Under the pieces are notes generated by a model, which was not told where the DNA came from, did no database searches, and worked only from the letters and a program-made list of their open reading frames with translations. Positions 1 through 44,281 of a stretch of 64,000 nt of DNA are shown here, in pieces. The position numbers and the translations under genes were made by a program. The stretch lies in the NCBI GenBank assembly GCA_030427505.1, contig JAUICH010000011.1, positions 1 to 64,000 on the forward strand, read 5' to 3'. Source of the DNA: Verrucomicrobiia bacterium. Its GTDB lineage: Bacteria; Verrucomicrobiota; Verrucomicrobiia; Verrucomicrobiales; DEV007. Every line of letters begins with the position of its first letter. Position 1 is the stretch's first letter.

Positions 1-194
1 CCGCTTCCACCGCCACGGCGGAAGTATCGGCGCTCCAGCGCGCGTCGTAGAAGGCAACCGTCGTAGCCGTAGTCCTACAACACTTGCTCACCCAAGGCCG
101 TCAAGGGGTGGTTCCCGTGACGCTTACGTTTGGTCGAATCGCTACGGCATCACCAACGGCCCCCAATTCCTTTCCCCAACCCCTCCCAAGCCCC
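1..194. other. unassigned left edge
   Basis: No gene could be assigned between the window edge and the first start codon. Both strands carry short open stretches but none has a recognisable protein pattern, and no clear promoter or terminator is visible. It may hold the end of a gene lying outside the window. Confidence 0.3.
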
Positions 195-791
195 ATGCCA
201 GAGGCTCCCCACGACCCCAACCTGAAACCGGCGGGCGCTGGCTTGCCAGCGGTGGAGCTCTTGTTCTCCAAGACGGGTTTCGCCTTTTACCGGTGGAAGA
301 CATCCGACCTCACGGTCACGGAGCATTTTCGTTCCCAGGGCAGCGAAATCCTGGCGCTGGCCATGCTCTTACCCCCCAACGAGGGCCACCGCCGCACCAT
401 AATCGATCGCGTGATGGGCATCGAAGACCACAGCCGCGACTGGTCGGTCTACATGACGCTGGACCACCTGCGGCAGGTAAATGACCGCATTCGCGGCATC
501 GTCATGGGACTGTGCGACGGACGAAGCGACCCGCCCGCCGCGGACGTCACCCAGGTAATACCCAACGAAAAGGCGGGCCCGGATGTGATCGATCTCTTTA
601 GCGACTCCGTGAACGCCTACGTCAAACAGGCCGGAGCCCGGAAAGAGTTACCAAAAACCGAAAAGCATCCGCACCCCTGGTTTGGAGCCCTGGATGCCCA
701 TGGCTGGCACTGCGTGGCGGCGGTACACATGGCCATACACCACCGGCAGATCGAAAGCATCCTCCACGCACAGCGCGCGGAGGCAGCCTGA
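195..791 (+). CDS. DinB-like superfamily protein
   Basis: The protein has 198 residues and resembles the DinB/YfiT-like four-helix bundle superfamily, whose members are often metal-dependent and act in thiol transfer or damage response. The C-terminal helix carries a run of histidines (HGWHCVAAVHMAIHHRQIESIL region, residues about 168-190) that matches the typical final metal-binding helix HxxxH followed by HRQI. An upstream in-frame start at 84 exists, but the extra residues are low-complexity and unlike a DinB N-terminus, so the ATG at 195 is preferred. It converges on the next gene with only 10 bases between. The substrate is unknown and the family call rests on the histidine pattern. Confidence 0.6.
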   Translation: MPEAPHDPNLKPAGAGLPAVELLFSKTGFAFYRWKTSDLTVTEHFRSQGSEILALAMLLPPNEGHRRTIIDRVMGIEDHSRDWSVYMTLDHLRQVNDRIRGIVMGLCDGRSDPPAADVTQVIPNEKAGPDVIDLFSDSVNAYVKQAGARKELPKTEKHPHPWFGALDAHGWHCVAAVHMAIHHRQIESILHAQRAEAA

Positions 792-22006: not shown

Positions 22007-23176
22007 TTAGATACCAGAACCCTGCATCATCTTCGGTCCCATGAGGAAGATGGGCAGGAACGCACCGATAAAGACGCAGCAGATCAGCACACAGGCCAAC
22101 ACCAGGGCGAAGAAGTTGATGGCCGCCGTAAAGTCCCCCATCAGCTGCTCCACGTCTTCCTCATACATGGTGGTCAGCAATTCGAGCTGGTTTTCCAGGG
22201 ACGAAGACCTCTCCCCAATGGAGATCATGTGAGATACCTGGGGATCGCAGGAGGTAAACTTCTTCATGGCCTCGGAAAATGGCAAGCCCGTGTGCTTGTA
22301 TTTCTTTCCGGCCTCGATTAACTCCGAAAAGAGCGGCGTGCCTTTGACCGTTTCGGCGGCGGTCTCAACTGCCTTGGTCAGATTAATGCCATTGGAGTGC
22401 AGCATGTTCAGCGTTCCAAGAAACATCATCTGCCGCATCCCCATGATGAGGTTTTTCAAGAGACGCCAGCGCGACATCAGCAGATAGAGCATCTGGTTGC
22501 GGGCCTTCTCCGAGACGAAGAACATGGTGACCCCGCCCCCTATCAAAAGGACCACGGCGGGCCAGACCTTCTGGGTCACGTGACTGACCGTGAACATGAA
22601 CTTGGAGAACGGATCCGGTTCCTGGCCGATGTCGTCCAGGATGCCTTCCACCTGAGGAACGACCTTGAGCTGAGCTCCAATGAAAAGCCCGATCAGGATG
22701 CAGATGATCATACCGGGCAGCAACGTGGCTTTCTTCAACTTTGCCTTGTACTCCATCTCCTTTTTCAAACGATGGGACATGGCGGCGAAAGCCCGGTGGA
22801 GCTGACCGGACTCGCTACCCGCCCGGATCAAACCGACGGTCTTGTCATCGAAACGCTTTGTCTTGGCAAACGCGGCAAAGGCCGGCACACCGGAGTCGAT
22901 CTGTTCGCGCACCGCCGTCAGCGTCTTGCGAACCTCCGCGTTCGGATGGTCAAAGGAATAGTACTTCAGCGCGTCAGAGGTATTGATCTGGGCCTTCAAC
23001 ATGGAGGCCATGCCCCGGCAAAACTTGATCAACTCCTTATTAGGAAACCCCCGGATGCGGGTTTTCTTTTCGGACACTTTTTGCCGCATCGCCAGCGCCG
23101 TGGCGGAGGTGCCGGGTCGCCCACGGTTCATCGCGGAGCTGCTGTCACTGGGATTCGGGTTCAGGGTAATGGCCAT
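22007..23176 (-). CDS. type IV pilus/type II secretion platform protein (PilC/GspF)
   Basis: The protein has 389 residues, the inner-membrane platform that the assembly ATPase acts on. Two GspF domains are seen. In the first, FCRGMASMLKAQINTSDALKYY (about 49-70) and LIRAGSESGQLHRAF precede the first membrane segment (LLPGMIICILIGLFIG, about 149-164). The second repeats the pattern with MFLGTLNMLHSNGINLTKAVE and MISIGERSSSLENQLELL, before a C-terminal helix FALVLACVLICCVFIGAFLPIF. The MFLGTL...GE duplicated layout is diagnostic. It follows the PilB-like ATPase gene by 29 bases. Confidence 0.93.
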   Translation of the reverse strand: MAITLNPNPSDSSSAMNRGRPGTSATALAMRQKVSEKKTRIRGFPNKELIKFCRGMASMLKAQINTSDALKYYSFDHPNAEVRKTLTAVREQIDSGVPAFAAFAKTKRFDDKTVGLIRAGSESGQLHRAFAAMSHRLKKEMEYKAKLKKATLLPGMIICILIGLFIGAQLKVVPQVEGILDDIGQEPDPFSKFMFTVSHVTQKVWPAVVLLIGGGVTMFFVSEKARNQMLYLLMSRWRLLKNLIMGMRQMMFLGTLNMLHSNGINLTKAVETAAETVKGTPLFSELIEAGKKYKHTGLPFSEAMKKFTSCDPQVSHMISIGERSSSLENQLELLTTMYEEDVEQLMGDFTAAINFFALVLACVLICCVFIGAFLPIFLMGPKMMQGSGI

Positions 23177-23205: not shown

Positions 23206-24891
23206 TCAGTTCGTCATGTCAATGACCTTGCGCAGTGCATCGAGGTCGGTCTTGCCTTCCTTCACCATGCGCAGACCGCTGTCGCGCAAAGAGGGCAAAC
23301 GGCCTTTCTTCCGGACTTCCAGTTCCAGTTCGTAGGGACTCATCGTTCCCTTCGAAAGGGCGTCGGACCATTCCGGTGTGATGGGGATGATTTCCAGGAT
23401 GGCGGACCGGCCGTTGTAACCGCGGTTATGGCATTCGCCGCAGCCATCCGGATTTTTCCCAAAGATTTCAATGTGCAGCCACTCTTCATCCAGGCCGTAG
23501 ATGTCCAGTTCCCTGCGTTCCACGCCCTGGCGCTTGATCTTGCAGTAGGGGCAGAGAATCTTCACCAGACGTTGCGCGCAGGCCGCCTTGAGCGTTTGCG
23601 CGATCTTCCACCGTTCGATGCCGAGCTGCTCGAAACGCTCGATGATCTGAGATGCCCGCGGGGTGTGAATCGTGGTCAGCACCTTGTGACCGGTGATCGC
23701 CGCTTCGATCGCCAGTTCGGCGGAGTCCAGGTCGCGCACCTCCCCCATGAGAATGATGTCCGGGTCGCTCCGCATGAAACTGGTGATCATGGGCTTGAAC
23801 TCCGCGCTGCTCTTCAAGTCGCAGTGCACGACACCCTGAATTTCGTCCTCCACCGGGTTCTCCAGAGTCAGAATATTGTCTTCCGGCCGGTTCAGTTCCC
23901 GCAGCATGGCGTTCAGGGTCGTGGACTTCCCGGACCCGGTCGGTCCTGACATCACGATGATTCCGGACGGAATGCTCATGACCCGTTCGATTTCGAACAG
24001 GGTCGCGGGATCGAAAGCCAGGGAGCCCATGCCCAGCTTTGCCTCGAAGTGACTCTTGTCCAAAATACGCATCGTCACGTGATAGCCGCGATAGGTCCGG
24101 TGACGCTCGTAACGAATATCGATACTCCGGCGGAGGTAAGACACCGTGAAACGGCCGGAGATGCCGGGCCGTTTTGTCCGTTCCTCCGGCGGCAGCCCCA
24201 TGAGGTTCAGGAGGAAGGCATCCAGCCGGTCTCTCAGTTTCATGGGAATGTCGTACTTCGTCCCCATGTCGCCATCGATCCGGTAGCTGTAGTGGATGCG
24301 CTCCTTCTCGGTCTTGATGTGAACGTCCGAGGCGTGCTGCTTGATCGCCTCCGACATCATCTTGGCGATGAACTGCGTGAGCGGTTCTTCGTAAGTGGTG
24401 GTGACGTTGAAGTCCGCGATGTCTTCCGAGACCTCGTCCACCTCGATGGCGTCCAGTTCGGACTTGGACGGACCGGCGGTCCGCGCCACGGTTTCGATAA
24501 CCTTCGAGATCTCCGCCACGGGCGAGAGAATCTTTACGACCTCCACGTCCGGGTAGCGTTGCGAACAAAAGTCCTCCGCGATGGGGTCCCAGGGATTCGC
24601 CACGGCCACGACCAATTGGCGGTCGTCCCGGCGCAACGGGACAAACATGCCGCGGTTCATGATCTGGGGATCGTTCTGCTCCAGCAGCGCCCGGTCCACA
24701 AAGTTCCGGATGTTCAGGAACACGGGAATGGAGTTCAGATTCCCGATGGCCGCCAGGATGCGCGCCTGCGAGCACCGGCGCACGACATCCTCTTTCGGAC
24801 GCTCCCTCAGCGTGGGATCGCCATCGGCCAGGCGATTCACGATGGCGTTCGTGATCGTCTCATTTAGTTCGATGCCGATGTTTAGATTCAT
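23206..24891 (-). CDS. assembly ATPase (PilB/GspE-like)
   Basis: The protein has 561 residues and is the hexameric ATPase that drives pilus or pseudopilus extension. An N-terminal MshEN-like region (about 40-170, with FVPLRRDDRQLVVAVANPWD) precedes the catalytic domain. ASDVHIKTEKERIHYSYRIDGD is at about 190-211, Walker A GPTGSGKST at about 316, the Asp box LENPVEDEIQG, Walker B DPDIILMGEVRD (about 370) and the His box HKVLTTIHTPRA. A tetracysteine zinc module (CPYC ... CGEC, about 445-485) marks the PilB/GspE subfamily as opposed to PilT. Its start overlaps the upstream gene's stop by 4 bases (ATGA). Confidence 0.96.
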   Translation of the reverse strand: MNLNIGIELNETITNAIVNRLADGDPTLRERPKEDVVRRCSQARILAAIGNLNSIPVFLNIRNFVDRALLEQNDPQIMNRGMFVPLRRDDRQLVVAVANPWDPIAEDFCSQRYPDVEVVKILSPVAEISKVIETVARTAGPSKSELDAIEVDEVSEDIADFNVTTTYEEPLTQFIAKMMSEAIKQHASDVHIKTEKERIHYSYRIDGDMGTKYDIPMKLRDRLDAFLLNLMGLPPEERTKRPGISGRFTVSYLRRSIDIRYERHRTYRGYHVTMRILDKSHFEAKLGMGSLAFDPATLFEIERVMSIPSGIIVMSGPTGSGKSTTLNAMLRELNRPEDNILTLENPVEDEIQGVVHCDLKSSAEFKPMITSFMRSDPDIILMGEVRDLDSAELAIEAAITGHKVLTTIHTPRASQIIERFEQLGIERWKIAQTLKAACAQRLVKILCPYCKIKRQGVERRELDIYGLDEEWLHIEIFGKNPDGCGECHNRGYNGRSAILEIIPITPEWSDALSKGTMSPYELELEVRKKGRLPSLRDSGLRMVKEGKTDLDALRKVIDMTN

Positions 24892-28845: not shown

Positions 28846-28864
28846 CGGGTTACCCTCCGGATAT

Positions 28865-31410: not shown

Positions 31411-31803
31411 TCACCAACCGGCGGTGCTGGCCGGCACGTGGTCGTCGGACGTAGCCAGGCTGCAGGTCAGGTAAGCAGTACCAGCGGCCGGAACTTCCGT
31501 ACCGAAGGTGTAAGTACCGCTAGCCGGGCAGGTCGGCGTGGACTCGATCATTTTGCCGGAACCAGCGATGTCGGTGGACGCAAGCGTGTCACCAATAGCC
31601 AGTTCGTACAGGTTCTGATAGGAACGCGCGGCTTTCTGAACGGTGGAAATGTTCAGGATGCACTTGGCGCGGTCAGCACCTTTCTTGTAAGCAGCGACAC
31701 CGATGAAAAGAACGCTGATCAAACCGAGCAGCACCGCGATCACCAGAGTCACTTCGATAAGGGTCAGGCCAGCCTGACGCTTGTTCGTGGATTGGACTTT
31801 CAT
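31411..31803 (-). CDS. type IV prepilin, probable major pilin
   Basis: The protein has 130 residues. Leader MKVQSTNKRQAG is followed by LTLIEVTLVIAVLLGLISVLFIGVAAYKKG, an excellent prepilin N-terminus (Gly at the cleavage point, Glu5). The mature protein is about 118 residues with two cysteines in the C-terminal half (TCPASGTYTFG ... YLTCSLA) that could form the disulfide loop. The strong leader, small size and following stable stem-loop suggest the main pilin. A CAA-repeat-rich leader (ACAACAACAACAACC) precedes the ATG, and it should be unstructured. The gene lies just behind the PilT-like ATPase gene. Confidence 0.85.
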   Translation of the reverse strand: MKVQSTNKRQAGLTLIEVTLVIAVLLGLISVLFIGVAAYKKGADRAKCILNISTVQKAARSYQNLYELAIGDTLASTDIAGSGKMIESTPTCPASGTYTFGTEVPAAGTAYLTCSLATSDDHVPASTAGW

Positions 31804-31879
31804 TCTGTCTTTCTTATTTGGTTGTTGTTGTTGTACTTTCGGAAGGTCCGGAGAAGGAAATCCCTGGACCCTCCGTTTT

Positions 31880-33094
31880 TCAGAATTCCGCCCCCACGGG
31901 GAGGAAGAGGTTGGAATCCTCATCGTCCACATGCATGCGGTTCATCTGAAAAGCTTCGAAAGAGATCAGCCCCTTGCGGTGCAAGTTGGCCAGGTTCGCG
32001 TCCCACTCGACGTTGCCACTTTGGCGAATCACGTCTTCCAGGGACTTGGCGCCGCCATCGTAGGCCGCGATACCCGAACGCACCGCGGACTCCGTGTTCT
32101 GCAGGAACTCGTAGTTCAGCACGCGGCCGTTTTTGCCGGTGATGAGTCCCTGAGATAGGATGAACATCAAAATCTCCGCCATCCGGCCCAGGATGGAGCG
32201 GTGCTGGCTGCGGGGGAAGAACTCCAGAATACGGTCCAGGGTCTTCACCGCGCCATTTGTGTGCAGGGTGGAAATCACCACGTGACCGGTTTGGGCGGCT
32301 TCCATGGCAATTTCCATGGTGTCCCGGTCACGGATCTCTCCCAGGAGGATGACGTGGGGCGCCTTACGCAAGACGTCTTTCAGCCCCTGGTAGTAACTCT
32401 TTACGTGCTTACCGACTTCCTGCTGGGTCACGAATCCCGGCGCGGGTACGCGCTGGCCCGCGATCTCCGGGTGCGCCATGTCGTGCGGATAGCGGTATTC
32501 GATCGGATCCTCCACGGTCACGATGTGGCGGGGATAGCTCCGGCGCAGCCAGTCGATGAGACCGGCCAAGGTGGTCGACTTACCCGAACCGGTCTGCCCG
32601 GTCACCAGGGCCAAACCCTGACGTTTTTTTACAAATTCTCTCAATGCCCGGGTCGTGTCTCTGGACAGGCCCAGGACATCCAAGTCGGCAATGTCGTCAT
32701 TGAGAATACGGCAGGTCACGCCCAGCCCGGAGGAACTGAGGTGCGCCTGGACACGCATGCGCCCGGAAAGTTCCCCATTCGGCAGCGGGTGACCGTTGCA
32801 ACTAAAGTCCACCACTTTGTATTCGCAAAGCCGGTCAAACACAGGCTGCTGTTCCTGAAGCCGGAGAGTCTCATTTTTGAACTCGTCCTCCTCCTGCCGG
32901 GAGTAAAGCATCTCAATAACGTTCATGATGACGTCCGTGGGCAGGTAACCAAGAGACTCGATAATCTGGAGTCCTTTCTTAGTATGCACGTATGCCAGGC
33001 GATTGGTCCGGAGCTGAATATCCGAAATCGCGTTCTCACCCGCCTGGGCGAAAACCTCACTGAAAACGTGCTGGCCGTATGAGAAGTCGGACAT
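31880..33094 (-). CDS. PilT-like retraction ATPase
   Basis: The protein has 404 residues. It shows AISDIQLRTNRLAYVHTKKG at the N-domain, Walker A GQTGSGKST at about 164-172, Asp box VEDPIEYRY, Walker B APHVILLGEIRDRDTMEIAMEAAQTGH (about 250-276), and His box VVISTLHTNGAVKTLDRI. The tetracysteine module of PilB is absent, and the shorter length matches PilT. A PilT suggests a retractable type IV pilus rather than a type II secretion system. Its promoter is at 33113-33141 in an AT-rich island, with a short leader. The pilin gene follows 76 bases downstream. Confidence 0.92.
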   Translation of the reverse strand: MSDFSYGQHVFSEVFAQAGENAISDIQLRTNRLAYVHTKKGLQIIESLGYLPTDVIMNVIEMLYSRQEEDEFKNETLRLQEQQPVFDRLCEYKVVDFSCNGHPLPNGELSGRMRVQAHLSSSGLGVTCRILNDDIADLDVLGLSRDTTRALREFVKKRQGLALVTGQTGSGKSTTLAGLIDWLRRSYPRHIVTVEDPIEYRYPHDMAHPEIAGQRVPAPGFVTQQEVGKHVKSYYQGLKDVLRKAPHVILLGEIRDRDTMEIAMEAAQTGHVVISTLHTNGAVKTLDRILEFFPRSQHRSILGRMAEILMFILSQGLITGKNGRVLNYEFLQNTESAVRSGIAAYDGGAKSLEDVIRQSGNVEWDANLANLHRKGLISFEAFQMNRMHVDDEDSNLFLPVGAEF

Positions 33095-35196: not shown

Positions 35197-35241
35197 GACT
35201 GAGTTGGGCAATAAGATTGAAGGCCGTTTTTCTGGCCGGTT

Positions 35242-35916: not shown

Positions 35917-36195
35917 TGTTAAGGACAACGATAAGTTTAACTGTTCCGTATTATATTGCCCAGCAGAGATCGCATCAAGTGTATTTTTTATAATTAATAT
36001 AAAAACAATACTTTCACTGAGTCTCTACGCTTTTCGTGGCAATAAGTGCCCCTAATTTGATCAAGCCCAGCCGTTTGGCTGCCTGGAGCCCTAATTTTTT
36101 CCGGCAAAAACGGAATAAGCCACCTCTCCGCCTTACAAAGAGGCCCTGGAGGAGAAACCCCAAACCGCCACGAAGCTACGGGCGCCGCAAAGGGG
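35917..36195. other. intergenic region before ABC operon
   Basis: These 279 bases lie behind the 655-residue protein gene and before the ABC operon. They hold the ABC promoter, a long AT-rich stretch (about 35980-36010), and a direct repeat CCCTAATTT at 36050-36058 and 36089-36097. No gene is seen. Confidence 0.5.
35950..35978 (-). promoter_or_regulatory. strong promoter of ABC/His-rich operon
   Basis: On the minus strand TTGATG (35973-35978) and a perfect TATAAT (35950-35955) are 17 bases apart. An A/T-only stretch directly upstream (about 35981-36010) is a good UP-element candidate. The transcript would start near 35943, about 27 bases before the ATG. Confidence 0.7.
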
Positions 36196-38163
36196 TCACT
36201 GAATCTCCTCGACCGTGACCAGCCAGTTCATCATGAACACCGGGGGAAGCTCCGCGGGGCTGATTAATCGCTTGAGCTCGGCCGAGATCTGCCCGGCATC
36301 CACCAGATCGTCATACCCATCTTTCAGATCCATTGGACGAAAGGCGTCCGCGGACTGTTCTTTCAGACTGCTCATCTGTCCCTCGAAGACGATCCGCTGA
36401 TCGTAGGCGCCTGTGCCGTAGCGCTTTTCCGGCGCAAAGATCGAGGTCGGCGGGTAGAACTCATAGCCAGAGGGCAGTCCCGCTCCGGAGGGCGCGGTGA
36501 TGGGCACTTGATTGAAGCTTTCACCGAAGTAAAACCGGCTCATCGAGACAATGGACAGCCCTTCCGTGAAAGGGCTCAGATCTTCACACTCCCGGATCGC
36601 CACCGCCATGTCGTCCGAAGTACTCGGAATGTTCGGCGCGTTTACGGTGGTTCTGGTCGAATCCGGGTAGATGTAGACCGAATTGTTTACGGTCACATCA
36701 TCCCCTCCGATGGAGGCCAGGAATGCAGGCAGGCGCTCCGGCAGGAAAATCAGAGCGTTCCGGCCCACTTCCAGATAGTCAGTCTGAAAAGGGAACGCAT
36801 CTCCCCCGGGCTCGTTTTCACGGGGCCAGTTCCAGTCCCGGGTGTAGCGCCGGTTTACCCGGGAACCCCCAGAGTAGTAGTAGAACCGGACCCGGGTTGG
36901 CATTTGGGTACTGGAGCCGACCATGCGCTCCACCCGGATCCGCATGGCGCATTGTTCGGCGCCCAGCGTGTAGTCATTCCATCCCGTGGGCGAAATCCGT
37001 TCGCTGTTGCTGCCGTCGCCATTCAGCTCGAAATATTCGTTACCGCGATTCAAAGGGACGATCGCCACCCGGCCGGCGTTGGAGGCCAGAGAGGCTTCGT
37101 AAAAGTCGGTGTCGGAGTTCGCCTGGAACGTTTCCCGAACCCCCAGGTCGTCAATATTTCCATTGATGGCCTGACCCGCCACCGTTGTTCCCGCGCCGAT
37201 GGACAGACGCTGGCGGCCGGAAAACAGACCCGAATTTAGGTTCACATTGCCATCGGTCTCCAACTCGTTGGCAAACACCCCTCCATCGATCGTGATATTG
37301 GTCCAGGCACTTCCATCCGCGTGACTTCCCACATTCATGTAATTTCCCGCGGACAAGGGTAACTGCGTGGGGACTTCATAAATCGAAAGAACATAGGTCT
37401 TCTTCACCGCGGGAATCGTCACATCTCCCGTGGTTTGGCCTCCAAAAGTCAGGGAAAACACCCACCAGTTCCGCTTGGCCACGAAGTTTTCGCCCGGCTT
37501 GGCAAAGCCAAAGCGAATATCCGGATACTCAATCAAGTTATAGAGTTCGTAATCCGGAAGGCTGGCACTCAGCCCCGCGGTCCAGCCGCTGTCGTAGGTC
37601 TTGTTGGTCGTGATAACGGGATAGGTCTGGTCGAGAAGGAAGATCGAATTGGTGGAGGTCAGCGGTGTGGGAATCTTGCCTCCTATCGAGGTATCGAACA
37701 TCAGGGCCGTGTCCCGGCGGTTTCCCGCGTTGACGAAACCGGTGGTTCCGACCGCCGGCGAAACAATCTCATCGGAGGACAGAATCTGCCGGTCACCCGT
37801 ATTGGCGGAAATGTGCCCGTCCAGATTCAGGGCCGTCAGCACGCTTGCGTCCACGCTGTCTTCGACGCCCGCCAGATCGATGGCTTCCTCGAAAATCGTT
37901 TCCCAACTGTACTCGGCCTGGTTTAGAGAGGACCCCTGCTGCATGGCCCCGATGGCCTTGTTCGGCACAATCGCCACCAGCGCGCGGATAATGGCATCCT
38001 CTTTCTGCGAATAGTCCACCTCAATCTGGCTCCGCACCTCCGCATCGTGAGCCCGCAGGTTCTGCCGGAAAACAAACATCAGGCTACCCAGGGTGATCAG
38101 CGCAAACGCCACCACCAAGGCGGTTCCAATGTATCCCGAGTCTCGTCTGGGTTTGTAGTGCAT
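36196..38163 (-). CDS. large PilX-like exported pilus-locus protein
   Basis: The protein has 655 residues. The N-terminus MHYKPRRDSGYIGTALVVAFALITLGSLMFVF is a basic leader then a hydrophobic helix, similar to PilX/PilV-type minor pilins but without the Gly-Phe-Thr-Leu-Ile-Glu site. The large remainder is beta-rich (ITIDGGVFANELETDGNVNLNSGLFSGRQ...) with no recognised domain. It follows two prepilin-like genes, in the order GspH/PilW-PilX, and may sit at the pilus tip or act as adhesin. The start at 38163 is one base after the upstream stop. Composition is normal for the region. Confidence 0.6.
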   Translation of the reverse strand: MHYKPRRDSGYIGTALVVAFALITLGSLMFVFRQNLRAHDAEVRSQIEVDYSQKEDAIIRALVAIVPNKAIGAMQQGSSLNQAEYSWETIFEEAIDLAGVEDSVDASVLTALNLDGHISANTGDRQILSSDEIVSPAVGTTGFVNAGNRRDTALMFDTSIGGKIPTPLTSTNSIFLLDQTYPVITTNKTYDSGWTAGLSASLPDYELYNLIEYPDIRFGFAKPGENFVAKRNWWVFSLTFGGQTTGDVTIPAVKKTYVLSIYEVPTQLPLSAGNYMNVGSHADGSAWTNITIDGGVFANELETDGNVNLNSGLFSGRQRLSIGAGTTVAGQAINGNIDDLGVRETFQANSDTDFYEASLASNAGRVAIVPLNRGNEYFELNGDGSNSERISPTGWNDYTLGAEQCAMRIRVERMVGSSTQMPTRVRFYYYSGGSRVNRRYTRDWNWPRENEPGGDAFPFQTDYLEVGRNALIFLPERLPAFLASIGGDDVTVNNSVYIYPDSTRTTVNAPNIPSTSDDMAVAIRECEDLSPFTEGLSIVSMSRFYFGESFNQVPITAPSGAGLPSGYEFYPPTSIFAPEKRYGTGAYDQRIVFEGQMSSLKEQSADAFRPMDLKDGYDDLVDAGQISAELKRLISPAELPPVFMMNWLVTVEEIQ

Positions 38164-38164: not shown

Positions 38165-38701
38165 CTATTCCCCTCCTCCGACGTAGGTGATTTCTTCCTG
38201 ATTTGGGCCCGTGATTTTCACCAGCAGAATGCCCGTGTCGTTGGAAAAGGTCACGTCACTCACTTTGGAAGAAATGGTCCAATCCGGGTCGTTGCTCCAA
38301 ATGGCGCCCTTGGAGTAAAAATTCAGCTGTCCCTCTCCGTTGACGACTTCGAAGGCGATGATCCTCTCGGAAGAACTCCCGTCCGGGTTCCGGTAGATCA
38401 GCCGGACGCAGCGCCCCCCCGTCGTGATGGCGCTGGACTCGGAAAAGGCGGTCGCCTTGGAGGCGTAAACGCGGTAGGAGTCCGCCCGGTTCAGCATCTT
38501 CACCATCAGCATGTTGATGGTGGGTGCGTCATCTCGCAGGAAATCGAAGGAATTTATGATTCTCAGAAGATTCACATGGTCGCTCAGCAGCACGAGGGAC
38601 GCGCTGGCGAGAATCATGGCAAGAATCAGGGCCAAGGTCATCTCCACGAGGGAGAAGGCCTTCTGCTTACAGGCTTTCGCGGCGGTCCGGAGCGTCATCA
38701 T
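38165..38701 (-). CDS. prepilin-like minor pilin (PilW-like)
   Basis: The protein has 178 residues. A leader MMTLRTAAKACKQKA precedes FSLVEMTLALILAMILASASLVLL, a prepilin N-terminus with Glu5 but Ala at the -1 position. The globular part has ICs typical of minor pilins, with CVRLIYRNPDGSSSERIIAFEVV resembling PilW/GspJ beta strands. Its first bases overlap the preceding stop by 4 bases, so both are cotranslated. It likely forms part of a minor pilin set that starts pilus assembly. Confidence 0.75.
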   Translation of the reverse strand: MMTLRTAAKACKQKAFSLVEMTLALILAMILASASLVLLSDHVNLLRIINSFDFLRDDAPTINMLMVKMLNRADSYRVYASKATAFSESSAITTGGRCVRLIYRNPDGSSSERIIAFEVVNGEGQLNFYSKGAIWSNDPDWTISSKVSDVTFSNDTGILLVKITGPNQEEITYVGGGE

Positions 38702-39180
38702 CGGGATCTCAGCACGTTCCGGGTTTTCACATAGTCCCGGCCGGAAACGGTGTAGGTCAGGAGCGACTGCAATCTCCAGGCCTCCATGCCGCTGGGGTTG
38801 GTAAAGCTGTCTCCCTTACCGCCTTCAGCGACCAGATTGTTTTCGTCAGCGAACTTCGTCCGGCGGACCGTGGCTGTCACGGCTAAGCCACCGGGCAGCT
38901 TGCCTACCTCCACGACTTCGGTCTGGATGGCGGGATATGTCGGCCAGGGCGTGCCCGTTTCCTTGAAGTCGTCGAACGGATACCGCCTGGCCAATGCCAT
39001 TTCCCGGGACATGTAGGCATCCGTCATGGCTTGGACGACGGTCCACCGCTGGGCGGACGTCGCGGAGACGGAGGCCTTGAACAAAAGCAGGGCCAAGACC
39101 GTGAGAAACCCAAAGCCAAACGTCAGCTCCATCAACGCCGAACCTTTGGAGCGGCTTCTGGATGAGTTACGGGCTTTCAT
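38698..39180 (-). CDS. prepilin-like minor pilin (PilV/GspI-like)
   Basis: The protein has 160 residues. Leader MKARNSSRSRSKG is followed by SALMELTFGFGFLTVLALLLFKASV, with Gly at -1 and Glu at position 5. The ATG at 39180 puts this leader at the N-terminus. YMSREMALARRYPFDDF after the helix resembles the start of GspI/PilV pseudopilins. The gene heads a row with the PilW-like and 655-residue genes and shares the 4-base overlap with the former. Confidence 0.75.
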   Translation of the reverse strand: MKARNSSRSRSKGSALMELTFGFGFLTVLALLLFKASVSATSAQRWTVVQAMTDAYMSREMALARRYPFDDFKETGTPWPTYPAIQTEVVEVGKLPGGLAVTATVRRTKFADENNLVAEGGKGDSFTNPSGMEAWRLQSLLTYTVSGRDYVKTRNVLRSR

Positions 39181-39246
39181 TTCTTGCGTCTTGGCTCGTG
39201 GCAGGGGCAGCCGCCCCCGGAAAGACAAACTGGGCGGAGTCGTTTC

Positions 39247-40272
39247 TTACTCCGAAGTCGTCACGGAACCCTTCACCCGGATGGTCCTGTCCAGTTCGAA
39301 GGTGAGGTAGGCCAGCCGGTCGGTTCCAAAGGGCGTGGTGGTCAGGATTTCCATGGTCCACACGCCGTCATCGGTAAAAACGGAGTCCCACTCGCTGAGA
39401 GTCAGCACCCGGCTCTGCGGCACGGAGTCGTTAATATTCAGGGCGGAGCCTTCCACCACCGTGCCTACCGTGCCCAGGCTGGGCTGACCCGGATAAACTT
39501 GCGCGTATGTCTGGGAGTCCGGGTACAGGTCGTTCAGATACAGGGAGACCGTCGGCACGGCGCCTTTGATTACCTGACCTCCGGTGATACCGGAAATGCT
39601 CGCGTCCGCCACCGGCCAGATCTGGATGAACTGGGAAGCCAGTTGGGATTCGGGAGACTGATAGTCTTCCAGCGAAAAGATGGAAAAGCGTTCTTCGCCC
39701 CGGACCTTAGCCCGGTTGGACCCCGGAATGGACGTCACGCCAAAGGTGACCTGCCAGATTCCATTAGAGGTCAGATAACCCTGGTAAAGCAGGGTCGCCT
39801 GATCCCGATTGATGTCCACGCCCGTTCCGCTGGAGCCGTATGACTGAACGTGCCAAAGCAGTTTCACGGCTTTGGACGCTTCAGGATCTTCGGATCCACT
39901 CAGCAACCCGCTGGTGTTGATCGTCAAGAAAAACGGACGATCAGCGCGAGTCCGGGGAATCTCTGTGTAGGGATCCTCCGAGGTGATTTCCACCGCCGCG
40001 CTCGGGACGTAAGCGCCCACATATTTGGTATCCAGCAAATAGCTGGCCAGCGGGGATGACTTGACGGTCCACAGCTCAAACCGTGCTCCCACGTTATCGA
40101 TGGACAGCGGAGAGATTTGTTCTCCCGTGGACTCGACCGACACGTCCCGCTGCACCCCGCTCTCCGCCTGTACCTGACGGATGAAATTGGTGTATTCCTG
40201 CGCGCTGGCGGCAGTGCCACCTAACAGAAAGACGATCAGACAACGAGTAACGACCCATTTCATGGCAGACAT
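39247..40272 (-). CDS. exported protein of the pilus locus
   Basis: The protein has 341 residues with a signal peptide (MKWVVTRCLIVFLLGGTAASA, cleaved near residue 24). The mature part is beta-rich and contains RTIRVKGSVTT at the end and many Asp/Ser/Thr residues, like a secreted adhesin or beta-sandwich protein. No known domain is recognised. It is likely coexpressed with the minor pilin genes downstream, which start 67 bases later, and could be a tip or cell-surface component. Confidence 0.65.
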   Translation of the reverse strand: MSAMKWVVTRCLIVFLLGGTAASAQEYTNFIRQVQAESGVQRDVSVESTGEQISPLSIDNVGARFELWTVKSSPLASYLLDTKYVGAYVPSAAVEITSEDPYTEIPRTRADRPFFLTINTSGLLSGSEDPEASKAVKLLWHVQSYGSSGTGVDINRDQATLLYQGYLTSNGIWQVTFGVTSIPGSNRAKVRGEERFSIFSLEDYQSPESQLASQFIQIWPVADASISGITGGQVIKGAVPTVSLYLNDLYPDSQTYAQVYPGQPSLGTVGTVVEGSALNINDSVPQSRVLTLSEWDSVFTDDGVWTMEILTTTPFGTDRLAYLTFELDRTIRVKGSVTTSE

Positions 40273-40290: not shown

Positions 40291-40893
40291 TTAGTTGTCG
40301 GTGGTGTCCGCGCTGGCGGTATCCGGTTCCGCCTCTTTAGGTGGCAACACGGAGATTGGCCCGCCCTTGAGCGTGGCCACGACCAGCTTGTTGCTGTTTT
40401 GAATCCATTCGAGGGTCTTCTCCGGCAGGGGGCTTTCGCCTTTGGCCTGTTCGAAGTCCACTTCCACCACCGCAATCCAGGCGCGGTTCGCCGCGTAGAA
40501 GTTCGTCCAGGTATACACGCGGGCGTCATCCTTCATTTCCAGCCGGTCTTCCAGCGCCTCCGGGACGTGAATCACGGCACGTTTCGGAACCAGCGTTGCC
40601 GCGCCGCGATAGCAGATAATATCGGACTGGCTGATGAGATCCTTGGGAACCTTGGCCTTGGAGGGGTCCTGCCCCTGCGAAGGCTTAAGAGCCTTCACCG
40701 GCGAATTCCGCAATGACTGGAGCAGAGCCTTGGAAAGGTCCTCATGAGTCGCCGCGTCGCGGATCTCTCCTTTCGGTCTAATCTTGATCTCGGCTTCCTC
40801 TCCCAAGCTCAGACCCGCCAGAGGAACCAGGCAAGTGGCCCCCAGCAAAACCAGGCAAAGAAAAAACCATTCTTTAAACGGACTCTTTTTCAT
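40291..40893 (-). CDS. exported protein of the pilus locus
   Basis: The protein has 200 residues with a signal peptide (MKKSPFKEWFFLCLVLLGATCLVPLAG). The mature part has a mixed alpha/beta pattern, including SQSDIICYRGAATLVPKRAVIHVPEALEDRL (about 94-124) and ANRAWIAVVEVDFEQAKG. No family is recognised. It is 18 bases upstream of the 341-residue exported gene and 8 bases downstream of the first paralog (40902-41627), so all three are probably on one transcript. Confidence 0.65.
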   Translation of the reverse strand: MKKSPFKEWFFLCLVLLGATCLVPLAGLSLGEEAEIKIRPKGEIRDAATHEDLSKALLQSLRNSPVKALKPSQGQDPSKAKVPKDLISQSDIICYRGAATLVPKRAVIHVPEALEDRLEMKDDARVYTWTNFYAANRAWIAVVEVDFEQAKGESPLPEKTLEWIQNSNKLVVATLKGGPISVLPPKEAEPDTASADTTDN

Positions 40894-40901: not shown

Positions 40902-41627
40902 TTAGTTCTTTCGGAAAGTCACCAGAAGGACGAGGTCCTGAAGATCGAAGGCAGACTGGCTGGGATGGGTCATCGCCAGTTCCATGAGGATGATCACATC
41001 CCGGGGACCGATCTTGATCTTGCCGTTGGAGTCGAGGTAGGGCTTCAGGAAGTCCTCAATCGCGTCCTGATTGTAGGCGGGAATGGTCTCCGGCGGCGTT
41101 TCGCCATTGGCCAGTACCACTACGTTGTAAGTGTTCGTTCCGGTGGAGTAGTAGGGATACCAGCCATTGTAGTAACAACGCCCCCGGAAATCGACCGTCC
41201 GGTCCTGCCGGACATACTTGGTGTAGTAGATCCGGGTAGGATTCACGTCAGGCTGTTTACCACTGAAGAAGCGCGTGAAACTCGTGGCTCCGTCCGCCTT
41301 GGCATAGGCTTCCACCGTCAGCCAGTTCGTGGCCGAGGTCTGGACCGAAGCGCCCAGAACTCTGACGTCCATGTAGAGGTTCTCCTTTGGAATGACCGTT
41401 CCGTCGTCCTCAATAACCACCACGTCACGGACGGTTTCCGGGTAGGTAATGTTCCAGTCCAGGGAAGGATTGGTCCCTGGTTGTACTTTGTGAGGAAAGG
41501 TATCCAGATATCCCACGGGTATCGCCGGATTGGTGGAACTCTCAGCGTGCAAACAGGTAGTACCCCCCAAGCCCACGGCAAGGAATACTGTCAGGACCCC
41601 CAGACCTTTCTTTATCGTCAGTTTCAT
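40902..41627 (-). CDS. exported paralog 1 with dockerin-like tail
   Basis: The protein has 241 residues with a signal peptide (MKLTIKKGLGVLTVFLAVGLGGTTCLHA). It is one of three tandem paralogs. Shared blocks are LYMDVRVLGASVQTS.TNWLTVEA, RFFSG.QP..NPT.IYYTKYVR, FRGR.Y..GWYPYYSTGTNT.NVVVL and the C-terminal FDLQDLVLLVTFRK. Residues 199-210, DSNGKIKIGPRD, match the calcium loop of dockerin type I repeats (D, N, G, K, I and D in the right places, position 5 not acidic), followed by VIILMEL. The gene starts at 41627; a longer frame to 41732 lacks a signal at its start. The leader from the promoter at 41783-41810 is about 150 bases. Function is unknown. Confidence 0.7.
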   Translation of the reverse strand: MKLTIKKGLGVLTVFLAVGLGGTTCLHAESSTNPAIPVGYLDTFPHKVQPGTNPSLDWNITYPETVRDVVVIEDDGTVIPKENLYMDVRVLGASVQTSATNWLTVEAYAKADGATSFTRFFSGKQPDVNPTRIYYTKYVRQDRTVDFRGRCYYNGWYPYYSTGTNTYNVVVLANGETPPETIPAYNQDAIEDFLKPYLDSNGKIKIGPRDVIILMELAMTHPSQSAFDLQDLVLLVTFRKN

Positions 41628-41782
41628 CTCTCTCTGCGTTTGCGATTGTGTTGTTTCAGGCGTCGTCGTCCCCATCCGGATAGCTGCGCCGCTCTGGCAG
41701 ATCTCCCAAATCTGAGGACTCCGTCCTCGCACCCGAATGAAGAAACTGTGAATCCGTCAAAATAGACCCATAGTTGATACGG

Positions 41783-41810
41783 ATTTTATTAAAATTATAA
41801 AAAATCGCAA
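41783..41810 (-). promoter_or_regulatory. promoter candidate for paralog 1
   Basis: On the minus strand TTGCGA (41805-41810) and TAAAAT (41783-41788) are 16 bases apart, the same spacing as in the promoters of paralogs 2 and 3. Here the spacer itself is A/T-rich. It lies about 155 bases before the ATG, so it is a less certain choice than the other two. Confidence 0.4.
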
Positions 41811-41948
41811 TATCTATTTTAGAATTCTCGTTCTTGAGGATCGCGACGCGTTTCTTGGATTTCTCCTTTTCCGGAAAACCCTCCCGATCTTTCGAAGGCT
41901 ATCGACCGCCGCTAATCGTTGTATTTGTTTGGACTAACGCGGCACCTC

Positions 41949-41980
41949 CCGCCCGGCTCACGCAGATAAGAGCCGGGCGG
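41949..41980 (-). terminator. hairpin after paralog 2
   Basis: CCGCCCGGCTC (41949-41959) pairs with GAGCCGGGCGG (41970-41980), loop of 10 bases, 62 bases behind the stop of paralog 2. No U-tract follows on the minus strand, so it may be a stabilising 3' structure rather than an intrinsic terminator. Confidence 0.45.
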
Positions 41981-42042
41981 AGAGGACCGCGATCGTGACG
42001 CTGAGGTTGGGAGATACTGACTAAACTTTTTCTCTGAAACTC

Positions 42043-42645
42043 CTATTTCCGGAAGGCAACCAGCAGGACCAGGTCCTGAAGGTCAAAGGCCGGTTGACTG
42101 GTGTCTGGCGGGGTACCCCCATTCACCAGGACCACCACATTGGCGGTGCTGGTCCCCGTCACGTAGTAGGGATACCACCCACTGTCGCAACAGCGGCCGC
42201 GAAAATCGATCGGCCTGGGCGTCCTCACATACTTGGTACTGTAGATCTTCGTGGGATTGGCGTTGGGTTGTCTGCCGCTGAAGAAGTTCGAAAAATTGGA
42301 CGCTCCATCCGCCCACGGGTCAGCTTCCACCGTCAGCCAGTTGGTGGAAGAAGTTTGCACCGAAGCCCCCAGGACCCTGACGTCCATGTAGAGGCTCCGC
42401 TTTGGAGCAATCGTTCCATGATTGTCGATCGAAGCTACTTCTTTGGCCGGATGGGGATAAGAGATCGCCCACATAAGTGTCGGCATGGTCCCGGGCTGGA
42501 CCTTGCTGGGAGCGGCCGTCAGCGTCCCTGCCAGAACGGAAGGACTGGAGTTGGAACTGGCGGCGTGAGCGCCAGAGGTGACACCTGCCGTGGCGATCGC
42601 GACGGCCAGCCACAGAGCCGAGGTCCCTGCAACGAATTGTCTCAT
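42043..42645 (-). CDS. exported paralog 2, dockerin-like tail deleted
   Basis: The protein has 200 residues with a signal peptide ending near AHAASSNSS. It shares YMDVRVLGASVQTS, TNWLTVEA, FFSGRQPNANPTKIY.TKYVR, PIDFRGR, GWYPYYVTGTSTANVVVLVNGGTPPDT and the ending FDLQDLVLLVAFRK with paralogs 1 and 3. Between PPDT and the C-terminal block it lacks about 40 residues present in the others (the NQDAIEDFLKPY to IILMEL segment), a clean in-frame deletion. The matching promoter, 16-base spacing and upstream AT motif are shared with paralog 3. If the deleted part is a binding module, this copy may be a soluble variant. Confidence 0.7.
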   Translation of the reverse strand: MRQFVAGTSALWLAVAIATAGVTSGAHAASSNSSPSVLAGTLTAAPSKVQPGTMPTLMWAISYPHPAKEVASIDNHGTIAPKRSLYMDVRVLGASVQTSSTNWLTVEADPWADGASNFSNFFSGRQPNANPTKIYSTKYVRTPRPIDFRGRCCDSGWYPYYVTGTSTANVVVLVNGGTPPDTSQPAFDLQDLVLLVAFRK

Positions 42646-42670
42646 TTGTATGGTTGAACGTATCTTCAGG

Positions 42671-42719
42671 AATCTAGCTGAACCCCCTGAAATTGCAATA
42701 ATAAATTATAATTATCATA
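42671..42719 (-). promoter_or_regulatory. promoter of paralog 2 with upstream AT motif
   Basis: On the minus strand TATGATAATTATA (42707-42719) is followed after 8 bases by TTGCAA (42693-42698), 16 bases, then TAGATT (42671-42676). Paralog 3 has the same three parts with the same distances, so the arrangement is conserved. Confidence 0.65.
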
Positions 42720-42921
42720 GTTTTTAGCAAAATAGAGAATCCGAAATTTTCCCAAGCGAGACCTTTCTACCCACCGCGAACCAAATCTGGTATTTCACAG
42801 GTCCACCCGGGCTGAAATACGTCAAAGGAGAGCCCTTGAACGGTTGCGCCCATGCGAAAGGGGAAAGTCCGGGAATGGGGCCGGCAAGTCTTTCCCGCTC
42901 TTCCCCTCCGGCAATAAAGAA

Positions 42922-42960
42922 ACCCTCCCGCGGATCGGCTCATGGCCGCCGGGAGGGTCT
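42922..42960 (-). terminator. terminator of paralog 3
   Basis: ACCCTCCCG (42922-42930) pairs with CGGGAGGGT (42950-42958), with extra inner pairs. On the minus strand the second arm is followed by TTCTTTATT. It lies 37 bases behind the paralog 3 stop. Confidence 0.65.
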
Positions 42961-42996
42961 AAAAAATTGGGAAGCTGAAATCCCGGTAGCGAGGAG

Positions 42997-43980
42997 TTAC
43001 GCTTTCCGGAACGTGACCAGCAGAACCAAATCCTGAAGATCGAAGCCTGAGGAATTCACGTTGGTTTGACCAATTTCGACGAGAATAATCACATCCCGGG
43101 GACCGATCTTCACCTTCCCGTTCACCATGTAGGGCTTCAGGAAGTCTTCGATGGCGTCCTGATTGTAGGCGGGAACGGTTTCCGGTGGGGTATCGCCATT
43201 CTTCAACACCACAACGTTCGGAGTATTGGTACCGGTAGAGTAGAAGGGGTAGTACCCGTAGTAGTAACCGCGGCCTCCCAGGTCGATGGGGCGCGGGGAA
43301 CGCACGTACTTCGTATAGTAGACGTGGGTGGGATTTACCTGCGGTTGAGTTCCACTGAAGAAACGGGTGTAGCTGTAGGCTCCGTCGGCTTTGACGTAGG
43401 CTTCCACCGTCAACCAGTTGTATCCCGACTGCCAAGCCGCGCCCAGCACACGGATGTCCATGTAAAGGTCCTCCTTGGGAATGATGGTGCCGTCGTCCTC
43501 GATTTCGACGATCTCGGTGACAATCTCCGGGTAGGTAATTTCCCAGTTCAGCCGCGGGAAGGTTCCCGCGCGCACCTTGGAGGGATATGTCTCCAGGGAC
43601 CCTACCGGCATGGCGGGGCTGGCGGAACCTCCACTGTCTCCGTCCATGCCAGCGCCGTCTCCACCGGAATTGGTATTCCCGTTTCCATTGCCATTGCCAT
43701 TCCCGTTCCCGTTCCCGTTCCCGTTCCCGTTCCCATTGCCATTCCCGTTTCCGTTCCCATTCCCGTCTCCATCATTCCCATGGCCTTGATCCTCATGATC
43801 GTCGTCATCGGAGTCGTGGTGATTTCCGTTGTCATGGCGATTTCCATCGTCGTCTTCGTACCCGTAACGGCGTCCATCGTCATCGTCGTTGCGGTAGGCG
43901 AAAACGCTTTCCGGCGTCACCCAAAGGGCAACGGAAAGAGCCGTTAGAAGAGCCAAGAAGAAGGTGAAGAAGCGTTTCAT
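42997..43980 (-). CDS. exported paralog 3 with Gly-Asn repeat and dockerin-like tail
   Basis: The protein has 327 residues with a signal peptide (MKRFFTFFLALLTALSVALWVTPESVFA). An acidic His/Asp-rich segment and 15 tandem Gly-Asn dipeptides (encoded at 43675-43764) precede the paralog domain. The domain has YMDIRVLGA..QSGYNWLTVEAYVKADGAYSYTRFFSG, VYYTKYVRSPRPIDLGGRGYYYGYYPFYSTGTNT and the ending FDLQDLVLLVTFRK. Residues 285-296, MVNGKVKIGPRD, correspond to the dockerin-like loop but lack the first Asp. The repeat probably forms a flexible linker. The gene is the first of the pilus-locus block, with its own promoter and terminator. Confidence 0.7.
   Translation of the reverse strand: MKRFFTFFLALLTALSVALWVTPESVFAYRNDDDDGRRYGYEDDDGNRHDNGNHHDSDDDDHEDQGHGNDGDGNGNGNGNGNGNGNGNGNGNGNGNGNGNGNTNSGGDGAGMDGDSGGSASPAMPVGSLETYPSKVRAGTFPRLNWEITYPEIVTEIVEIEDDGTIIPKEDLYMDIRVLGAAWQSGYNWLTVEAYVKADGAYSYTRFFSGTQPQVNPTHVYYTKYVRSPRPIDLGGRGYYYGYYPFYSTGTNTPNVVVLKNGDTPPETVPAYNQDAIEDFLKPYMVNGKVKIGPRDVIILVEIGQTNVNSSGFDLQDLVLLVTFRKA
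43675..43764 (-). repeat. 15-copy hexamer repeat encoding Gly-Asn
   Basis: Fifteen 6-base units of type GGNAAY in the minus strand lie in the reading frame of paralog 3. Five adjacent units are identical (GGGAAC), and the others vary at third codon positions. Gain or loss of a unit changes linker length by two residues without a frameshift. The variation between copies suggests selection for the protein sequence and not only recent slippage. Confidence 0.85.
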
Positions 43981-44281
43981 TATCTCAAGAGATTATGATT
44001 TTTATGGTAAATCGATGCGATTCTAGCACAATACGTTCGAGCGGCAACAAAAAACTATAATTTTCATAAGTTTCTCATCTCTGCAACGCTGTCCCGCGCA
44101 TTTGGTTTTCTCTACAGCCTCACTCTCAGTCAGCGGAAACCGCCTCATCTCCTCTTCCGGATCTTTGTATTCCCGCGGTTACCACCCCGTTCCTCCAACC
44201 TTGGGACCTTCATCCCCTCCAGCGAGTGAGCACCCTCTCTTGACGTGGCTTGCTCTTCTCTCCCATTCTCTCTTCCACGCT
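43981..44281. other. divergent intergenic region
   Basis: These 301 bases separate paralog 3 (minus) from the beta-helix gene (plus). They contain the paralog 3 promoter and its AT motif on the left. The right half is a pyrimidine-rich segment before 44282 with no clear plus-strand promoter; TTGACG near 44240 is a weak candidate. A plus-strand frame beginning at 44102 extends the beta-helix protein upstream, but its signal peptide starts at 44282. Confidence 0.5.
44020..44068 (-). promoter_or_regulatory. promoter of paralog 3 with upstream AT motif
   Basis: On the minus strand TATGAAAATTATA (44056-44068) is followed after 8 bases by TTGCCG (44042-44047), 16 bases, and TAGAAT (44020-44025). 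Transcription would start near 44013, about 33 bases before the ATG. The layout is identical to that of paralog 2. Confidence 0.65.

Follow-up and report, generated by a model that had tools for sequence, protein, structure and literature searches.

LecB is a soluble lectin, and the Verrucomicrobiota, the phylum in which the present locus was found, include particle- and mucus-associated glycan degraders. PA-IIL, a member of the LecB family, binds fucose and mannose (available part of PMC1903359). A LecB-like module has also been linked to type IV pili in Myxococcus xanthus, where PilY1.1, associated with a minor-pilin operon, carries a Ca2+-dependent, LecB-like sugar-binding domain (N-terminal DUF4114) and has EPS as its proposed ligand (excerpt of PMC9109919). 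The minor pilins PilC and PilA of Streptococcus sanguinis bind glycans and place a lectin module at the pilus tip (excerpt of PMC9934059). Within the Verrucomicrobiales, Akkermansiaceae have been proposed in a 2026 study to attach to fucose-rich glycans by a conserved type IV-like pilus, represented by the MUL2 locus; the part of PMC13174399 consulted names no adhesin.

The window, i.e. the whole stretch of 64,000 nucleotides analysed, contains a cassette of six kinds of genes, designated X, Y, Z, B, C and A, the first of which is present in three copies. X-Y-Z-B-C-A is a well-supported, conserved and widespread Verrucomicrobiales cassette that was previously unannotated. Its genes and the pilus genes that follow are:

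42997..43980, minus strand: X copy 3, 327 aa; an Asp/Asn/Gly-rich spacer of about 90 aa with a (GN)n run precedes the same domain
42043..42645, minus strand: X copy 2, 200 aa; copy-1 residues 182-222 missing in frame
40902..41627, minus strand: X copy 1, exported protein of predicted lectin fold, 241 aa; Y follows after 8 bp
40291..40893, minus strand: Y, about 200 aa, exported, no Pfam family match
39247..40272, minus strand: Z, 341 aa, exported, with predicted tandem Ig/FnIII-like beta domains
38698..39228, minus strand: B, minor-pilin-like, prepilin site G|SALME
38165..38701, minus strand: C, minor-pilin-like, N_methyl PF07963, prepilin site A|FSLVE
36196..38163, minus strand: A, 655 aa, hydrophobic N-terminus, last cassette gene; pilin-like by position only
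35242-35928, minus strand: ABC ATPase with a membrane protein beside it (34435-35211), with support from synteny
31880..33094, minus strand: PilT-like T2SSE ATPase, with support from synteny
31411..31932, minus strand: pilin-like protein
29416-31278, 28865-29416 and 28225-28923, minus strand: three pilus-platform-like genes, in an order resembling the MUL2 locus (excerpt of PMC13174399)
25657..28062, minus strand: secretin (PF00263, PF03958)
23206..24891, minus strand: PilB-like T2SSE ATPase with MshEN
22007..23176, minus strand: PilC-like T2SSF protein

The three X genes are paralogs at the coordinates given, as the initial annotation had proposed, and all lie on the minus strand. With copy 1 as the query against the entire own genome, copy 3 was recovered (72% identity, E 2e-99), as was copy 2 (59% identity, E 4e-64), while no fourth copy was found at E<=10 in this assembly, which is 96.5% complete; a first contig scan with copy 1 alone as the query gave no match. 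The sequence blocks described as shared are present: NWLTVEA is invariant across the three copies at each of its 7 columns, and FDLQDLVLLVTFRK at 13 of 14. The in-frame gap of copy 2, given as about 40 residues, comprises 41. It takes out the loop that had been read as a dockerin, one predicted strand of the beta-sandwich and the conserved acidic residue 216, and is therefore not the loss of a detachable binding tail. Copy 2 has the longest branch of the three paralogs in the tree and differs from copy 1 at 0.24/0.20/0.53 of the three codon positions, which makes a long-dead gene unlikely. With the presumed site gone and the sandwich incomplete, it is probably altered or non-binding. The family is apparently exported, as previously suggested, and has no counterpart in Pfam or NCBIfam, in agreement with the remark that no described family was known. 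Whereas the lectin of S. sanguinis is grafted onto a pilin (excerpt of PMC9934059), inspection of X by eye revealed a conventional signal peptide but not a prepilin signal. A scan for promoters and terminators gave counts no higher than in shuffled sequences; two promoter-like sites precede copies 3 and 1, by happenstance at these counts.

For B and C, the prepilin signals are a computational observation that extends beyond the window: G/A-x4-E ahead of a hydrophobic stretch occurs in 19/20 B rows and 17/20 C rows, and the four rows lacking it are wrong-frame or partial ORFs. The same scan found no clear site in 17 rows of A. Z is more conserved than X and Y and is predicted to form a rod of Ig/FnIII-like domains, its structure matches being generic for such folds (poor rmsd and a VIA-align Z no higher than 8.5). 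The biofilm scaffold RbmA is among its Foldseek matches, and DUF2914 was matched by two of 28 Z members (best E 7e-5), the Z of the window not being one of them.

The composition of the cassette was compared across 25 X loci. Z lies beside X in all of them and Y completes the trio in 24, with the complete B-C-A next to it in 16 and at least B in 18; B-C-A was not seen at seven loci, two of which are on short contigs. Three X copies of a single genome stand without Y or Z. Across 386 genomes of the order, X occurs in 107, Z in 145 and both in 106 (hypergeometric P 2e-60, phylogeny ignored), and B-C-A follows Z in all seven Z-bearing genomes without a called X. The pairing with the pilus core was likewise observed computationally. 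As the initial annotation had stated, pilus genes adjoin X in the window, where the N_methyl gene at 38165-38701 is followed further along by the secretin, T2SSE and T2SSF genes, and of the 23 X-bearing genomes examined, 22 contain a PilM/N-like pilus-core gene. The pilus core of the own genome and window lies on the same strand as the cassette and after it. A PilM/N profile had no match in four genomes of one genus, and the secretin of the window had none in three genomes of that genus at E<=1e-5. The order of secretin, two small genes, PilM-like gene and pilin at MUL2 resembles the window at 25.6-31.9 kb (excerpt of PMC13174399); a link by sequence was not obtained, as profiles of the pilin and the small genes did not match the Amuc structures. 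An ABC ATPase gene is close by in up to 8/25 X loci. No published report of the cassette or of a Verrucomicrobia pilus lectin was found in a search whose scope lay outside most subscription journals and bioRxiv preprints.

Four features of copy 1 are relevant to its possible function:

41439..41519, minus strand: hairpin motif of about 27 residues, PxGxL...vqxGtxPxLxWxIxYP (residues 37-63), from the model and comparison
40905..41429, minus strand: predicted LecB-like domain (residues 67-241), from the VIA-align 2 fold match
40998..41033, minus strand: loop formerly read as dockerin (residues 199-210); the model shows no EF-hand here
40935..40982, minus strand: candidate Ca2+ hairpin E216...D228-L-Q230-D231, from conservation and the fold-match register

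The structure prediction supports a common fold for the family. The AF2 model of copy 1 is all beta (mean pLDDT 84.7), and the VIA-align 2 comparison of the predicted model returned LecB-type structures in all of the top 17 rows (Z 8.6-11.4), with the next fold at 5.9. The best match of the X domain was BclA (2vnv; Z 11.4, rmsd 2.8, 117 of 127 residues aligned), and the predicted sandwich aligns in this range with the LecB/PA-IIL family (PF07472; PA-IIL, BclA, RS-IIL, CV-IIL). A LecB/PA-IIL-like beta-sandwich is thus a well-supported prediction for X. Foldseek returned nothing under 0.001, its best rows, starting at E 0.012, being C2 and TNF folds; the C2 fold, which ranked first there instead of LecB, was rejected as it stood far beneath LecB after VIA-align 2. 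Searches of solved structures gave one antibody chain for copy 1 alone (E 0.34) and an antibody chain and CD33 for the X profile (E 0.49-0.59), all of which were taken as chance. Sequence homology between X and LecB was not detectable, with an hhalign probability of 0.2 against a two-sequence profile, and PF07472 was not listed for any of 28 members, nor did the own genome yield a match to it at E<=1. Over 240 genomes of the phylum, the PA-IIL HMM exceeded its cut-off in one, which is not the own genome, and sub-cut-off matches occurred in 42 others but also in 6 of 14 control genomes.

The candidate calcium hairpin lies in the last part of this domain. D-x-Q-D is present in 15/15 rows of one alignment, in 23/23 further members found by profile and not by motif, and in 28/28 rows of a larger alignment, most of which were picked by a DLQD pattern. 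The end points of the fold match place D228-L-Q230-D231 on D101-Y-N-D104 of LecB, provided that an ungapped alignment is assumed for the last strand, so that the D-x-N-D of LecB and the conserved D-x-Q-D of X would share one register. We take the Ca2+ ligands on the C-terminal hairpin of LecB to be E95, D101, N103 and D104, with D99 in the set too. In the ungapped register, the equivalents of D101, N103 and D104 would be the conserved D228, Q230 and D231, and E216 is a plausible further ligand. The position of Asp99 is G or A in all 28 rows. Since the tails of X vary in length, the C-terminal carboxylate by which a neighbouring subunit completes the LecB site cannot be conserved in X. X further differs from LecB in its extra N-terminal hairpin motif, in the missing C-terminal Gly ligand and in its place in a pilus cassette. 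Loop lengths also vary; one of the places affected is the 94-101 loop, the counterpart, in the same register, of the sugar-specificity loop of LecB. An NNGHGNN module is appended at the C-terminus in 8/28 rows.

The initial annotation had placed calcium in a dockerin-type tail that would dock X to a cohesin. The 12-residue stretch is present in copies 1 and 3, but its first Asp is found only in copy 1, copy 3 starting with M. Copy 1 does contain one D...G..I...D stretch, and its last Asp is conserved in 28/28 and 13/15 rows of the two alignments; position 1, however, is variable, with D in only 23/28 homologs. EF-hand and dockerin loops have G at position 6, whereas that of X is at position 4. 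The model has no helix after the loop but a beta-strand at residues 210-215, the alignment shows a single stretch in place of the duplicated loop and helix of dockerin type I, and PF00404 was absent at E<=10 from the matches of 28 members and of the three window proteins, in a search whose HMMER filters discard most matches above about 0.1. A dockerin is therefore extremely improbable. The earlier idea of calcium close to the C-terminus may nevertheless hold for D228-x-Q230-D231, about 20 residues past this loop.

We give slightly better than even chances to the reading that X is the secreted, exchangeable glycan-binding head of a minor-pilin, tip-priming complex of a type IV pilus. B-C-A would prime and cap the pilus, and Z and Y would hold X at the tip, to which it may attach via its N-terminal hairpin. 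A Ca2+ ion on E216, D228, Q230 and D231 would help to bind glycans on particles or surfaces, after which the pilus could pull. In the own genome, X would have been duplicated twice, leaving copy 1 next to Y and copies 2 and 3 apart, where they could serve as alternative heads.

The order and sizes of B-C-A resemble those of the GspI-J-K pseudopilins, and these genes might instead form a type II-secretion-like piston, with X, Y and Z constituting an exported free or surface lectin instead of a tip part. The solubility of LecB, the match of Z to RbmA and the trios without nearby B-C-A are consistent with this. T2SS needs no PilT-like ATPase, however, and the same-strand pilus set after the cassette includes one; together with the pilus core in nearly all X-bearing genomes, this makes the secretion reading unlikely. 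A part in polysaccharide uptake, with X as a surface glycan-binding protein linked to the pilus through shared regulation only, draws on the proposed pilus-linked attachment of Akkermansiaceae to fucose-rich glycans and their demonstrated fucoidan uptake (excerpt of PMC13174399), and on the fucose and mannose binding of PA-IIL (excerpt of PMC1903359). The neighbours common to most X loci are, however, the cassette genes themselves, and we regard this role as quite improbable, although the ABC ATPase gene close to up to 8/25 loci would be compatible with it, as would the other neighbours, most of them without annotation and possibly including glycoside hydrolases. A similarly low probability is assigned to a Ca2+-stabilised structural or protein-binding tip domain without sugar binding. 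Such a domain would fit the non-conserved Asp99 and C-terminal carboxylate ligands and the missing sequence link to lectins, but not as readily the loop-length variation at the putative sugar-specificity loop.

If X is a pilus-tip head, a close analogue would be PilY1.1, whose paralogs carry different heads as the X slot does (excerpts of PMC9109919 and PMC13190605), whereas the lectin-fold domain of X is a free small protein. Neither PilY1 PF05567 nor DUF4114 PF13448 was listed for X members, and the Pfam search of the cassette proteins of the window gave no PilY1 match; the PF05567 profile matched none of 54 relatives but had no match in the control either, and so does not indicate absence, and DUF4114 is not always detected (excerpt of PMC13190605). 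Some lineages have a different head in the first slot of the cassette, and the hairpin motif seems to be common to X and these proteins, although it beats all shuffles individually in only 4/25 of them. A broader, tentative and rather doubtful proposal is a PilY1-independent modular adhesin system, in which the minor-pilin cap bears a Y/Z adaptor and the hairpin serves as the plug for interchangeable heads, one being the Ca2+ lectin with the LecB fold and the other a second, different head. The MUL2-like pilus, for which capture of fucose-rich glycans has been proposed, would then have the lectin head as its missing adhesin.

The cassette pairs minor pilins with the predicted fold of known fucose and mannose binders and thereby provides a concrete and cheaply testable adhesin candidate. 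If the tip location and sugar binding of X are true, the free subunit would represent a third route of lectin modules into pilus tips, besides fusion to PilY1 and grafting onto pilins.

The three exported paralogs proposed by the initial annotation were found as open reading frames, all on the minus strand. They are termed X here and are listed with two genes of their surroundings.

40902-41627, minus strand: X copy 1
42043-42645, minus strand: X copy 2
42997-43980, minus strand: X copy 3
44102-45505, plus strand: right-handed beta-helix protein (PF13229/NosD-like) adjoining the X genes
33281-34528, minus strand: His/Asp-rich protein between an ABC membrane protein and a PilT-like ATPase

Identities to copy 1 of 72% (E 2e-99) and 59% (E 4e-64) identify the copies as true paralogs, and no fourth copy was detected in the organism's own 6.4 Mb genome at E<=10. 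A protein tree of 37 rows unites the three copies (support 93/92) and pairs copy 1 with copy 2 (99/93), so that they look like duplications within the window's lineage. The branch of copy 2 is the longest of the three (0.56 vs 0.15 and 0.21), and this copy, as had been noticed from the sequence, lacks about 40 residues, more exactly the 41 corresponding to copy-1 residues 182-222. Copies 1 and 2 differ most at the third codon position (0.24/0.20/0.53 by position), so copy 2 evolved under constraint on its protein for a large part of its history. The spacer of copy 3 (43640-43900, minus strand) is Asp/His-rich and then turns into (Gly-Asn)n; this coding repeat is possibly prone to slippage, by which the head's reach could change. 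Homologs of the beta-helix protein also lie inside three loci from other genomes (L051, L065, L068).

The view that X belongs to no described family was borne out for Pfam and NCBIfam, as copy 1 has no Pfam match and the three copies together gave a single NCBIfam match (copy 3, E 0.17). Pfam matches among 28 X members were weak (E 0.009 or worse) and each confined to one member. A three-row model found homologs in 10 of 57 relatives, own genome included, and a 15-row model found them in 107 of 386 genomes sampled from the order. One degenerate pattern around FDLQD yielded 25 loci from about 85,000 species genomes, which are therefore selected for that very motif. By title, they come from Luteolibacter, Haloferula, Akkermansiaceae, Verrucomicrobiaceae and other Verrucomicrobiota, and the one titled Akkermansia muciniphila is a metagenome bin.

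X very probably folds as a LecB/PA-IIL-like sandwich, judging by structure prediction. The AlphaFold2 model of copy 1, built from a 28-row alignment, is all-beta with a mean pLDDT of 84.7 and a pTM of 0.74; 148 of 241 residues reach a pLDDT >=90, and residues 1-33 stay below 50. Foldseek alone was not decisive (best E 0.012). Its top 1000 chains were realigned with VIA-align 2, of which 998 aligned, and the first 17 rows were all LecB-type lectins, led by BclA (2vnv, Z 11.4, rmsd 2.8, 117/127 residues) and including PA-IIL (1gzt, Z 10.1) and thrombocorticin (8.6-8.7). The fold claim is based on this Z of 11.4 and the gap of almost 3 to the next fold (Z 5.9); according to the program's guidance, best Z values of 7 to 8 are typical for models without a clear match. 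The matched region starts near residue 67 or 74 and continues to the C-terminus; residues 37-63 lie outside it.

The dockerin-like tail suggested by the initial annotation was rejected. In the copy-1 model, the proposed loop (199-210) is followed by a strand (210-215); loop position 1 is D in 23 of the 28 rows, position 12 (D210) is invariant but as the first residue of that strand, and no second dockerin-like repeat was seen in the X alignment or model. Near the C-terminus, a different candidate metal site emerges. In the 1gzt match (model 74..241 on chain 1..114), D231, Q230 and D228 fall on the Ca2+ ligands D104, N103 and D101 of LecB if the last strand is aligned without gaps; at this register the chain segment reads SEDGTDNDYNDAVVVINW. 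D-L-Q-D occurs in all 28 rows of the large alignment, most of which were chosen by that same motif. A fairer test is offered by members found by profile, and D-x-Q-D occurs in 15/15 rows of such an alignment and in 23/23 further members absent from both alignments (second residue L in 20). Position 216 is E or D in 28/28 and 14/15 rows, respectively, the exception being the gap of copy 2, and E in the 16/16 further members that a simple pattern could place. Asp99 and the Gly114 carboxylate are named as ligands in LecB/PA-IIL by PMC1903359. In X, however, all 28 rows have G or A where LecB has Asp99, the C-terminus varies among members, and a profile-profile comparison with LecB showed no homology. 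These differences argue against full equivalence; the candidate site may work like that of LecB, in a protein that is at most a putative PA-IIL family member.

Clustering the ORFs of the 25 loci and the window, followed by profile building, revealed a gene cassette X-Y-Z-B-C-A, whose existence as a unit is practically certain. It comprises X, an exported protein (Y), a predicted Ig/FnIII-like rod (Z), two minor-pilin-like proteins (B, C) and a large last gene (A). Z accompanies X in 25/25 loci and Y completes the trio in 24, with the order X-Z-Y in L072 and L073 and no Y found in L057. Complete B-C-A sets follow in 13 loci and lie upstream in divergent orientation in three (L051, L065, L068); L067 and L069 show part of the set before the contig ends, and none was seen in seven (L053 and L057, both short contigs, L064, L066, L072, L073, L075). 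Second loci of the same organisms carry all of B-C-A for L066 (L056) and part of it for L072 (L067). L058 carries the whole X-Y-Z unit twice, and L060 has X-Z plus X-Y-Z. Across the order, Z occurs in 145 of 386 genomes, including 106 of the 107 with X, although these related genomes are not independent. Type III prepilin sites were found in 19/20 rows of B and 17/20 of C, the other four being wrong-frame or partial ORFs; the same scan gave no clear site in A. The Z model shows tandem Ig/FnIII-like domains (pLDDT 88.4) with generic structural matches only. In genome G040, three X genes lie in tandem in a stretch that contains neither Y nor Z (L106, G040:C1:230000-246000); at separate sites this genome has two X-Y-Z trios, and the stretches examined around them showed no B-C-A.

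Downstream of the window's cassette, the same strand encodes an ABC ATPase and membrane protein, the His-rich protein, a PilT-like ATPase and a pilin, then three platform-like genes, a secretin, a PilB-like ATPase and a PilC-like protein. All three other genomes examined (G012, G040, G211; three families) share the gene order between ABC and the last pilin; among them, the cassette adjoins this set only in G012, from the window's family. In Luteolibacter marinus, the cassette lies apart, between mutL plus one unknown gene and a CT398-like gene. The proposed association with pili held at genome level: rather than being scattered in pilus-free genomes, X co-occurs with a PilM/N-like core gene in 22 of 23 X-bearing genomes, which stand for the 25 loci since the remaining two come from organisms already included. 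The His/Asp-rich protein, syntenic in G012, G040 and G211, possibly binds metal. In two genomes (L141, L143), the pilin beside the PilT-like gene is tandemly duplicated.

Z without a called X was seen in 39 genomes, and the locus was examined from 37. B-C-A followed Z in all seven loci read at length. A different protein, taken as an alternative head, precedes Y in 25 of the 37; no head was obtained from the other 12, where the flank was truncated or an unrelated ORF preceded Y (e.g. L101, L105, L126). In 23 of the 25 heads, the best match to the hairpin motif of X (about 27 residues, 37-63) falls close to the C-terminal end or directly ahead of an added tail. Scores of 8.3-16.7 bits in L102, L104, L112 and L114 exceed the maximum of 1000 shuffles (5.9), and the remaining heads of the 25 scored do not individually exceed background. 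Of these heads, 16 were aligned; they are mutually related and therefore not independent tests. The hairpin probably serves X and the alternative heads as a common attachment element, with the head lying on one side of it or the other. One 496-aa ORF (L103:6013-7503, minus strand) combines a weak hairpin match (4.5 bits), an Asn/Asp/Gly module and a homolog of Z; it looks as though the head of the first slot had disappeared and its attachment motif had become part of Z.

This module of about 35 residues (NNGHGNN.DG.DSSNPG...DDE), whose protein sequence is better conserved than its DNA, turns up in several cassette proteins and at varying positions: between hairpin and Z in that ORF, at X C-termini (L052, L054, L055, L062, L063, L067, L071, L075), in the alternative heads of L102 and L104, and inside the lectin domain at the loop after VIGA (L109:8774-9754). 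In the window's family, the C-terminus of many X proteins is a polybasic GRRRR-like tail (L028, L036, L039, L043, L045-L048, L050), often preceded by an acidic or Asn/Gly-rich stretch; the tail resembles a processing or anchoring signal of a kind not yet recognised.

The closest working precedent for X as a tip lectin is Myxococcus PilY1.1, which belongs to a minor-pilin operon; its DUF4114 domain, for which a Ca2+ pocket is predicted, was compared by the authors to BclA, RS-IIL and PA-IIL, and exopolysaccharide binding was proposed (PMC9109919, PMC13190605). In S. sanguinis, a lectin module on a minor pilin was placed at the tip by modelling (PMC9934059). For Akkermansiaceae, a 2026 paper proposed that a type IV-like pilus, MUL2, attaches the cells to fucose-rich glycans, and the window's order of secretin, two small genes, PilM-like gene and pilin resembles its description (PMC13174399). 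Comparisons of the window's pilus genes with MUL2 did not demonstrate orthology. Our confidence is therefore near complete for the cassette and high for the fold, and the chances that X would act as a tip lectin are about even.
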